Assembly: GCF_945952055.1 (NCBI RefSeq)
Contig: NZ_CAMFHB010000062.1
Coordinates: 1-32,829, forward strand
DNA from: an uncultured Alsobacter sp.
GTDB taxonomy: Bacteria > Pseudomonadota > Alphaproteobacteria > Rhizobiales > Beijerinckiaceae
Direction of reading: 5' to 3'
Length of the DNA: 32,829 bases
Under the pieces are notes generated by a model. It ran no database searches. It was not told the DNA's origin and was given only the letters and a program-made list of their open reading frames with translations. A program made the position numbers and the translations under genes. Positions 650-26,620 of the stretch are shown here, piece by piece. Position 1 is the first letter of the stretch. The number at the start of each line of letters is the position of its first letter.

Positions 650-1705
650 TTACTGGCCGCGGACGCGGCGGACCAGCGTGGCCACGTGCTCCGGCGGGGT
701 CTCGGGCACGATGCCATGCCCGAAATTGAAGATGTGGCGGCCGCCGCCGAAGTCCTCGAGCACCCGGTCGATGCCACGCAGCATGGCGTCGCCACCGGCC
801 ACGACCGTCAGCGGGTCGAGGTTGCCCTGGACGGCGATGTGCGGCTGCAGGGTCTTGGCGGCCCAACGCCCGTCCACGCCCCAGTCCAGGCCGGCGGCAT
901 CCGCGCCGGTCTCGATGACCCGCGCATGACCGACGCCGGCGTTCCGCGTGAAGACGATGATCTTGGCCCCGGGGACCGCCTTCCGGACGCCCGCGATGAT
1001 CCGGGAGATCGGCTTGATCGACCAGCGGTCGAAGGCGTCGGGGGTCAGGGCCCCGGCAAAGCTCTCGAAGATCTGGACCGCATCGACGCCGGCCTGGAAC
1101 TGCCGGATGAGATAGGCGGTCGAGGCTACGACCAGCCGATCGATGAGGGTGTCCATGAACGCGGGATCGCGATAGGCCATCAGCCGCGACGGTGCGAGCT
1201 CCGGGGTGCCCTTGCCCGCCACCATGTAGCTGCCCACGGTCCAGGGAGCCCCGCAGAAGCCCAGGAAGGTGGTCTCGCGGGGCAGCGCACCCTTGATGCG
1301 CTCGATCGCCTCGAAGACCGGTCCCAGGCGCTCCAGATCGATCTCTTCGGAGAGCCCCTTGAGAGCCTCCATCGAGGTGATGGGAGGCAGGCGTGGGCCT
1401 TCGCCTTCGGCGAAGCTGACCTGCTGGCCCAGGGCGTCCGGGACGACCAGGATGTCGCTGAAGAGAATGGCCCCGTCGAAGCCGTAGCGCCTGATGGGTT
1501 GCAGGGTGGCCTCGGTGGCCATCGCCGGCGTGTAGCAGAAGTCGATGAAGGACTTCGCCTTGGTCCTCAGCTCGCGGTACTCGGGGAGATAACGACCCGC
1601 CTGCCGCATGATCCAGATCGGAGGCCTGGATTGGCGGTGTCCGTTCAGGACGTCGAGAAGCGGCTTTCCGGTCGGGCTAGGCACGGCTGTGGACGAAGGG
1701 GCCAC
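650..1705 (-). CDS. hemE: Uroporphyrinogen decarboxylase
   Basis: This cytoplasmic enzyme decarboxylates uroporphyrinogen III to coproporphyrinogen III in haem synthesis. Family signatures are visible: KPLLDVLNGH, then RQAGRYLPEY (about residues 34-43), GFDGAILFSDILVVPDALG with the catalytic Asp, and GFCGAPWTVGSYM. I choose the GTG at 1705 (351 residues) because AAAAGG lies 8 bp upstream and the length suits the family. The frame is open to an ATG at 1792, which would add 29 unconserved residues reaching into the presumed replication origin. hemJ follows 10 bp downstream. In Caulobacter this gene borders the chromosome origin and its promoter region is part of it; the same layout is seen here. 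Confidence 0.95.
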   Translation of the reverse strand: MAPSSTAVPSPTGKPLLDVLNGHRQSRPPIWIMRQAGRYLPEYRELRTKAKSFIDFCYTPAMATEATLQPIRRYGFDGAILFSDILVVPDALGQQVSFAEGEGPRLPPITSMEALKGLSEEIDLERLGPVFEAIERIKGALPRETTFLGFCGAPWTVGSYMVAGKGTPELAPSRLMAYRDPAFMDTLIDRLVVASTAYLIRQFQAGVDAVQIFESFAGALTPDAFDRWSIKPISRIIAGVRKAVPGAKIIVFTRNAGVGHARVIETGADAAGLDWGVDGRWAAKTLQPHIAVQGNLDPLTVVAGGDAMLRGIDRVLEDFGGGRHIFNFGHGIVPETPPEHVATLVRRVRGQ

Positions 1706-1843
1706 TTCATAGACCTTTTGATTCAAGGACTCTCTGAGTTTGTTTCTAGACCGGGAGATGCCGGGTTTCCAAGTCGTCCACAGGCCGTGCACAAGTTGGC
1801 CCTGTCAACGCCAAGCGCCCGTCCAGGCTCGCGCCGGATGGGC

Positions 1844-1859
1844 GTTAACACTTCCTTAA
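1844..1859 (-). promoter_or_regulatory. CtrA binding site, full consensus
   Basis: The minus strand reads TTAA-GGAAGTG-TTAAC, an exact match to the CtrA consensus TTAA-N7-TTAAC. The plus strand also reads TTAA-N7-TTAA. It lies in the middle of the hemE-ppsR gap. In Caulobacter, CtrA bound at such sites in Cori blocks initiation of replication in swarmer cells; the same role here is inferred. It could also affect hemE transcription. Confidence 0.75.
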
Positions 1860-2029
1860 GGATTCGCATGGGCTCTGGCCTCATGGATGCGGCGGATCGG
1901 GCCCGCCTCGGCGCGCTGTCCCCAGCTGTGGCCAAAACCGGCGGGATCGTGTCCCCCGCAAGAGCCCTGTTGATCGCGCGGTGGGTGCGCGCCACAGTGA
2001 CTCGGCGCTGCCGCGGCGGTGAGGGGGAG

Positions 2030-2058
2030 TCATCCACGCTCATCCACAGCCATCCACA
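2030..2058 (+). promoter_or_regulatory. Three tandem DnaA-box-like sites in 10-bp register
   Basis: TCATCCACG (2030-2038), TCATCCACA (2040-2048) and CCATCCACA (2050-2058) match the DnaA box TTATCCACA at 7, 8 and 7 of 9 positions. They start exactly 10 bp apart, so all face the same side of the helix. They lie 37 bp before the ppsR start. Caulobacter DnaA is known to use non-canonical boxes (such as TGATCCACA), so these divergent sites are plausible. Binding is not shown. Confidence 0.65.
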
Positions 2059-2094
2059 GGGCTGTCGAAGCACGCAAGGCATCGGGGGGCGCGC

Positions 2095-2925
2095 GTGAAC
2101 CGCAGCTATTTCCATCTCCATCTGGTTTCGGACGCGACGGGCGAAACGCTGATCGCGGTCAGCCGGGCAGCCGCGGCGCAATACCAGGGAATTTCGGCCA
2201 TCGAGCATGTCTATCCGCTGGTGCGCTCCTCCGCCCAGCTCGATCGCGTGCTGAACGAGCTGGAAGCCTCGCCGGGGATCGTCCTCTACACCCTCGTGGA
2301 ACCCGAGCTCGCCAAGCGGCTCGAGGATGCCTGCCAGGAGTATGGCTGTCCCTGCCTCTCGGTGCTCGACCCCGTGCTGATGCTGTTCCAGTCCTATCTC
2401 GGCACGGCATCGACCCAGCGTCCCGGCGCCCAGCACGTCCTGAACGGCGAGTACTTCAAGCGCATCGACGCCTTGAACTACACGATGATCCACGACGACG
2501 GGCAGCTTCCCCACGATCTCGACACCGCCGACGTCGTGCTCGTGGGCATCAGCCGCACGTCCAAGACACCGACCTCGATCTACCTCGCCAACCGCGGCAT
2601 CAAGACGGCTAACATTCCGCTCGTCCCCAACATCCCGCCTCCGCCCCAGCTCGAAACCGTCCGCAAGCCGCTGGTGGTCGGGCTGGTGGCCACGCCCGAG
2701 CGCATCGTCCAGATCCGACAGAACCGGCTCCTCACGCTCAACGCCCCGGAGGACAGCCCCTATGTCGACAAGGCCGCCGTCACGGAGGAGGTCGCTTTCT
2801 CCCGCAAGCTCTGCGCCCGCAACAACTGGCCGGTGATCGACGTCACCCGGCGCTCCATCGAGGAGACGGCCGCGGCGATCCTGGAGCTCTACCGGGCCCA
2901 TCGCATGCGGTTCATCGCCGAATGA
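2095..2925 (+). CDS. ppsR: Pyruvate,phosphate dikinase / PEP synthase regulatory protein (DUF299)
   Basis: This 276-residue bifunctional Ser/Thr kinase and phosphorylase switches PEP synthase or pyruvate,phosphate dikinase off (ADP-dependent) and on (phosphate-dependent). The N-terminus [18 protein letters not shown] is the family opening, and the P-loop-like motif [11 protein letters not shown] lies at residues 151-161, followed by the conserved [11 protein letters not shown]. The start is the GTG at 2095, with GGGGGG (2084-2089) as ribosome site. The stop overlaps the maf start (ATGA), so the two are translationally coupled. This is the RP001/DUF299 gene that borders Cori in Caulobacter. 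Neither target enzyme gene is in the window, so whether it acts on PEP synthase or on the dikinase is open. Confidence 0.93.
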
Positions 2926-9780: not shown

Positions 9781-9875
9781 GAACATGTGCGAGGGGACGC
9801 GCCGGGGATCCGGGAGCGGATCGGCCCGCGTCCCGCCCGGGTTCAGCGCTCAGTGATTCACGTGAAACACAGCGC

Positions 9876-25122: not shown

Positions 25123-26529
<1,407 letters not shown>

Positions 26530-26596: not shown

Positions 26597-26620
26597 AGAC
26601 ATAAAGAATTCTTTATGTCT
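26597..26620. promoter_or_regulatory. Perfect 24-bp palindromic operator upstream of ahcY
   Basis: AGACATAAAGAA (26597-26608) is followed directly by its exact reverse complement (26609-26620). An extra direct copy of ATAAAG lies at 26593-26598, overlapping the left edge. The site is AT-rich in GC-rich surroundings and lies in the 293-bp divergent gap between ahcY and the luxR gene, nearer ahcY. ArsR-family SahR regulators that sense SAH control ahcY and methionine genes in many Proteobacteria, so SahR is my first guess. I cannot verify the motif. The rest of the gap (26621-26822) shows nothing firm. Confidence 0.7.

Follow-up and report, generated by a model that had tools for sequence, protein, structure and literature searches.

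A probable hemE/ppsR-type replication origin with a single CtrA box in an uncultured Alsobacter genome

The 410-bp gap between hemE and ppsR (positions 1685–2094) in the draft genome of an uncultured Alsobacter sp. is, judged from its sequence, very probably the place where chromosome replication starts. It appears as an ordinary origin of the hemE/ppsR (Cori) type, already described in Caulobacter and Rickettsia, with one modestly interesting regulatory trait, a CtrA box. The DNA analysed (the window) is the entire 32,829-nt stretch constituting contig C62 of a 6.62-Mb assembly in 106 contigs. These contigs are unordered, which precludes a cumulative GC skew of the genome itself, so that an origin is here placed in a draft genome whose own skew cannot reveal one, and a short fragment becomes available for origin plasmids and replication-timing work. 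The first-pass annotation had proposed an origin at this place, and the proposal is supported because rare boxes, the position of a parS-like site, an architecture that recurs in relatives, and skew turns in two of those relatives (genomes G012 and G021) converge on the gap. The relevant features are as follows.

650 to 1684, minus strand: hemE, uroporphyrinogen decarboxylase, left flank of the origin (TIGR01464, 382.8 bits against a cut-off of 302.95)
1685 to 2094: hemE-ppsR gap, proposed chromosomal origin (410 bp; box content compared with shuffles and genome rates; architecture recurring in relatives)
1688 to 1696, minus strand: DnaA-type box TCGTCCACA, exact TNRTCCACA
1701 to 1753: AT-rich stretch, candidate DNA-unwinding element (60% AT in 50 bp)
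1720 to 2031: five GANTC (CcrM-type) sites, at 1720, 1728, 1861, 1999 and 2027
1774 to 1782, plus strand: left DnaA-type box TCGTCCACA, exact TNRTCCACA
1845 to 1859: CtrA box TTAACACTTCCTTAA, perfect TTAA-N7-TTAA
1967 to 1998, plus strand: promoter-like CTGTTGATCG element reading to ppsR, TTGATCG-N14-GCCACAGT
2030 to 2058, plus strand: right DnaA-type array, three boxes head-to-tail at 2030, 2040 and 2050 (10 bp spacing)
2095 to 2925, plus strand: ppsR (DUF299/COG1806), right flank of the origin (NF003742, 346.5 bits against a cut-off of 225)
9854 to 9869: parS-like site TGATTCACGTGAAACA, one mismatch from the parS consensus

The divergent arrangement of hemE and ppsR described in the first-pass annotation is correct, both genes scoring above the cut-offs of their models, while the narrower PpsR model NF049928 scores under its own cut-off. 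The bounds of the gap depend on the start of hemE, assumed to be the GTG at 1684. Gene order in the region is hemJ and hemE, followed by ppsR, a Maf-like gene (scoring under the curated cut-offs of the models it matches), coaE, dnaQ, secB, and a TimA-type gene. Among named species in the genome collection, Microvirga flavescens has the best-scoring ppsR (74% identity), and some metagenome-assembled genomes reach 77%. With Microvirga and Chelatococcus among the hits, the family would be Beijerinckiaceae as defined by GTDB. Two other elements were observed in the window. A REP-like palindromic element at 36–166 shows strong single-stranded DNA folding (z -9.56), and among the 40 of 208 candidate genome places that were scored, nearly all are long copies with 79–89% identity; contig C22 opens on this repeat too, at an identical offset, which may mean that the contig broke within the repeat. 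A perfect 22-bp palindrome, GACATAAAGAATTCTTTATGTC, lies at 26598–26619, about 70 bp upstream of ahcY (25123–26529, minus strand), and is a candidate operator, perhaps that of a SahR-like regulator.

DnaA-type boxes were defined by the pattern TNRTCCACA, and the DnaA-box-like sites that had been noted in the gap are indeed present as three exact and three one-mismatch copies. The exact copies lie at 1688, at 1774, and at 2040–2048 on the plus strand in the middle of the right array; the boxes at 2030 and 2050 each carry one mismatch, as does an additional box at 1927 on the minus strand. Only one further exact copy occurs elsewhere in the window. As the whole genome contains 250 exact copies, 0.0155 would be expected per 410 bp, so the three observed exceed chance, with a probability of 6e-7 per 410-bp window and about 0.01 genome-wide. 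The 6.62-Mb genome has a single copy of the triple pattern TCCACR-N4-TCCACR-N4-TCCACR, and five columns of the box at 1774 are invariant in an alignment of 15 sequences. No match to TTATNCACA, the stricter DnaA box of PMC1914354, was found in the gap. None of 12,567 windows of 410 bp in 133 sampled stretches held four TCCACA, a scan that says little on origins in general because those stretches include the gaps of G002 and G012, which hold three and none, respectively.

The gap as a whole is 35% AT (65% GC), and the AT-richer stretch previously noted near the hemE start lies at 1701–1753; it ranks 15 of 32,780 50-mers, is equalled or surpassed in AT content by one other region of the window, adjoins a partly conserved block in the alignment, and is a candidate unwinding element by its composition and position. 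The GANTC sites are likewise present, five of the 45 in the window lying in the gap against 0.56 expected at the window rate. Their enrichment is the weakest of the points, because shuffles of the gap itself give an expectation of 1.48, and 12 of 1000 such shuffles reach five. Across the window (1–32829), GANTC is strongly depleted (45 found against 167 expected from shuffles), which would fit avoidance of CcrM sites. The IHF consensus WATCAN5WTR had no match in the gap or in the whole window; an IHF site is taken here as usual and not required, because diverged or absent IHF sites are reported for Anaplasma and Neorickettsia in the part of PMC1914354 cited.

The parS-like site TGATTCACGTGAAACA is the only match to the parS consensus in the window at up to three mismatches (0.00 expected) and lies 7.8 kb from the gap. 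The pattern TGNTTCACGTGAANCA matches nowhere else in the genome, and the exact parS consensus had no match in the genome at all. Thirteen genomes, counting this one, were screened for either or both of two patterns, and matches were obtained in nine; the patterns applied to G001 and G002 (both of the same genus), G015, and G021 gave none there. In eight of the nine matched genomes the site is on the ppsR contig (that of G003 is on another contig), and in seven of these eight (G000, G007, G012, G014, G017, G022, and G053) it lies within 20 kb of ppsR, the site of G011 being 90 kb away. In four loci (L004, L006, L008, and L009) parS falls within the hemE-ppsR gap itself, and the variant of the present window does so in L091. 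A parS-like site with two mismatches was also observed in the gap of L106.

The architecture of the gap was compared across 110 loci (L002–L111). The 54 genomes with a ppsR match were followed further except for G041, G043, G045, and G048. Two loci, L045 and L103, were excluded as too short; hemE stands beside ppsR in 39, and the other 69, mainly from Bradyrhizobium, do not show this arrangement and stand outside the gap statistics. Removal of two near-duplicates left 37 gaps, including the present one (L082), which are not fully independent because several remain close kin. These contain 79 TCCACA against 6.9 expected from shuffles, distributed over 35 gaps (6.2 expected); the exact hexamer is absent from L005 and from L109, the latter being the locus of G012, the best skew fit. 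Exact CtrA boxes number 24 against 0.1 expected, and 22 of the 37 gaps hold at least one (0.1 expected), mainly in the host's family; the 15 gaps with no exact box include L083, the nearest same-genus relative by ppsR. Positions recur as well. Among the 39 gaps, a plus-strand TCCACA lies 60–135 bp from hemE in 27, a TCCACA lies within 110 bp of ppsR in 27, and both hold in 22, while TCCACA flanks the CtrA box on both sides in 14 of the 22 gaps that carry one. In 20 further genomes, five of the same family and 15 of other families (raw counts with no shuffle control, some gaps being AT-rich), hemE adjoins ppsR in 18, 19 contain TCCACA, and six have an exact CtrA box, one among the five and five among the 15. 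The Bradyrhizobium-type loci (L012–L081) were observed to have no hemE upstream of ppsR within the DNA covered and nonetheless to carry TCCACA boxes upstream; where their sequence extends far enough, nearly all of them also have parS-like sites about 4–5 kb away.

GC skew was sampled in G002, G011, G012, G021, G022, and G053; G015 and G017 stand outside this sampling. In G012 the gap coincides with the best skew-derived candidate origin (rank 1 of 212), based on 40 samples of 20 kb that are denser near the gap because 19 of the 20 extra samples fall within about 240 kb of it. In G021, for which positions were computed by treating contig C1 as circular, skew is positive in each of the seven samples to the right, against values from -0.033 to 0.0005 in the seven to the left. 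In G022, G053, and G011, 20 samples of 20 kb each were too noisy for the skew to single out the gap, which ranks 28 of 268, 24 of 225, and 37 of 240, respectively. In the same-genus genome G002 the skew does not flip at the gap, being -0.0218 to its left and -0.0157 to its right; the final 9 kb of the contig are an exception to the negative sign, and the right side spans just 102 kb to the contig end. The preferred strand of GGGCAGGG switches at the gap in two genomes, with forward/reverse counts of 12/1 on the right and 0/12 on the left in G012 and of 23/5 and 3/29 in G053. The corresponding counts, again right then left, are 8/0 and 1/5 in G021, 11/3 and 7/12 in G022, and 24/8 and 13/8 in G011; G002 (5/1 and 3/12) leans the expected way despite its skew. 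For the first 100 plus-strand places of GGGCAGGG in G011, the best change point in density is 1.22 Mb (1.14–1.315 Mb within 2 log units), with the gap at 1.15 Mb.

From this arrangement we infer a course of initiation in which DnaA most likely occupies the box at 1774 on the left together with the phased triple array at 2030–2058, and most likely opens the AT-rich stretch at 1701–1753 beside hemE, where the helicase would be loaded. The two DnaA groups are separated by the site at 1845–1859, from which a CtrA dimer probably delays initiation for as long as CtrA is present. Methylation of the GANTC sites by CcrM may mark the replication state, and ParB bound at the parS-like site 7.8 kb away would segregate the new origins.

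The CtrA box that the first-pass annotation had listed is a perfect copy, and it is the sole TTAA-N7-TTAA in the window even when one mismatch is allowed (0.16 expected); given a genome total of 17, 0.001 would be expected per 410 bp. The genome has its own ctrA gene, truncated at the edge of contig C33 and scoring over the curated cut-off. CtrA that occupies the Caulobacter origin is described as excluding DnaA (PMC8959179). It can be suggested, tentatively, that much of this Rhizobiales-type family, along with some other families of the order, kept direct silencing of the origin by CtrA and that the Sinorhizobium, Brucella, and Bradyrhizobium lines lost it (a CtrA box is found in two of the 69 upstream regions, mainly from Bradyrhizobium), with the single box between the DnaA groups forming a minimal one-site version of the Caulobacter switch. 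A CtrA box at the origin common to many relatives would be mildly new when set against the non-binding reported for Sinorhizobium and Brucella. No published description of a conserved CtrA box at origins of the host's family was found among the matches listed, by titles and abstract openings and with most subscription papers outside the scope, and the claim of novelty is restricted to "not found in print" because literature coverage was limited. The distribution of the exact CtrA box makes it testable where direct control of replication by CtrA was kept or lost.

A real possibility, though somewhat short of probable, is that the site is the origin while the CtrA box acts in transcription, of ppsR, of hemE, or of a small RNA encoded at the origin and comparable to CcnA of Caulobacter, rather than in silencing replication. 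CcnA is described as a transcript of Cori whose promoter carries a CtrA box (PMC8959179), and the passages cited report the origins of S. meliloti (PMC4433202) and B. abortus (PMC2877005) as unbound by CtrA. Against this, a CcnA-like RNA was sought with Rfam in 1600–2200 with zero matches up to E = 1, conservation just downstream of the box is poor in the 15-sequence alignment, and the box sits between the two DnaA groups. A promoter role would be compatible with all of these points.

Much less probable, and indeed very unlikely, is that the gap serves only as a divergent promoter region for hemE and ppsR, its TCCACA and CtrA motifs being transcription-factor sites, with the origin located elsewhere. 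DnaA also regulates transcription, and about 100 promoters in Caulobacter are targets of CtrA (PMC7200025). The skew of G002, G022, and G011 lends no support to an origin at the gap, and the promoter-like element toward ppsR recurs in relatives, CTGTTGA being found in 17 of the 39 hemE-ppsR gaps, several of which have a second block 17 bp on. This element, TTGATCG-N14-GCCACAGT, is the only match in the window to a pattern drawn from the consensus of alphaproteobacterial housekeeping promoters, and resembles such a promoter. A promoter region alone would not, however, account readily for a box density far over the genome rate, for parS in or near the gap, or for the turn of the skew there in G012 and G021. 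Moreover, at least two TCCACA persist within 700 bp upstream of ppsR in all 69 loci with no adjacent hemE (mainly Bradyrhizobium; a raw count, not dereplicated and with no shuffle control).

As the first-pass annotation had stated, dnaA is not nearby, being placed on contig C5, separate from the hemE-ppsR contig. In the seven relatives with both genes on one contig, dnaA and ppsR are 147 kb to 2.0 Mb apart (measured the shorter way round in the single-contig G022). In G015, fifteen weak matches to the DnaA model were observed besides the true gene, ten of them sharing one score; they perhaps represent a repeated transposition ATPase. An origin adjoining dnaA, as in many other bacteria (342 of 568 chromosomes according to PMC2275245), is extremely improbable here and was rejected on the absence of strict boxes within 6 kb of dnaA: although two TCCACA lie in the 600 bp upstream of this gene, the best 410-bp window in the 14 kb around it holds three TCCACA and one strict box and lies more than 6 kb from it, and the skew of G012 turns at the hemE gap, 166 kb from dnaA. 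The related warning that software relying on dnaA could miss the origin was only partly right: Ori-Finder already takes hemE as an indicator gene (PMC2275245).

Sinorhizobium meliloti and Brucella abortus, relatives within Rhizobiales, possess CtrA, as does the present genome. The S. meliloti origin is described as having no CtrA motif and as unbound (PMC4433202), and CtrA is reported not to bind that of B. abortus (PMC2877005), whereas the present gap carries a perfect box common to many relatives. The predicted oriC of Methylocystis sp. SC2 is similar in being an Ori-Finder call with three DnaA boxes, situated away from dnaA and with no clear GC-skew inversion; the section of PMC3794950 cited describes no CtrA box for it, unlike the one found here. 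In Hyphomonas neptunium, ChIP-seq shows CtrA binding next to the origin (PMC7200025), whereas in the present case the site is known from its motif alone. Experiments located the hemE/COG1806 origin of Caulobacter, and that of Rickettsia has been assigned to this gene pair as well (PMC1914354); in R. prowazekii the pair is hemE / RP001, and the origin is 82.55% AT (PMC1914354 Table 1) against the 35% of the present gap. The closest comparison is with the Cori of Caulobacter crescentus, and the equation of the two gaps in the first-pass annotation stands, the hemE/DUF299 flanking pair being identical (PMC1914354). Cori has five CtrA sites (PMC1914354) where the present gap has one perfect box, and differs from this gap, in which boxes are of the TNRTCCACA type and the IHF consensus was not found. 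The two are of similar length, 404 bp (PMC1914354 Table 1) and 410 bp, and share the gene pair (hemE / CC0001, DUF299), DnaA boxes, a CtrA box, and an AT-rich stretch.
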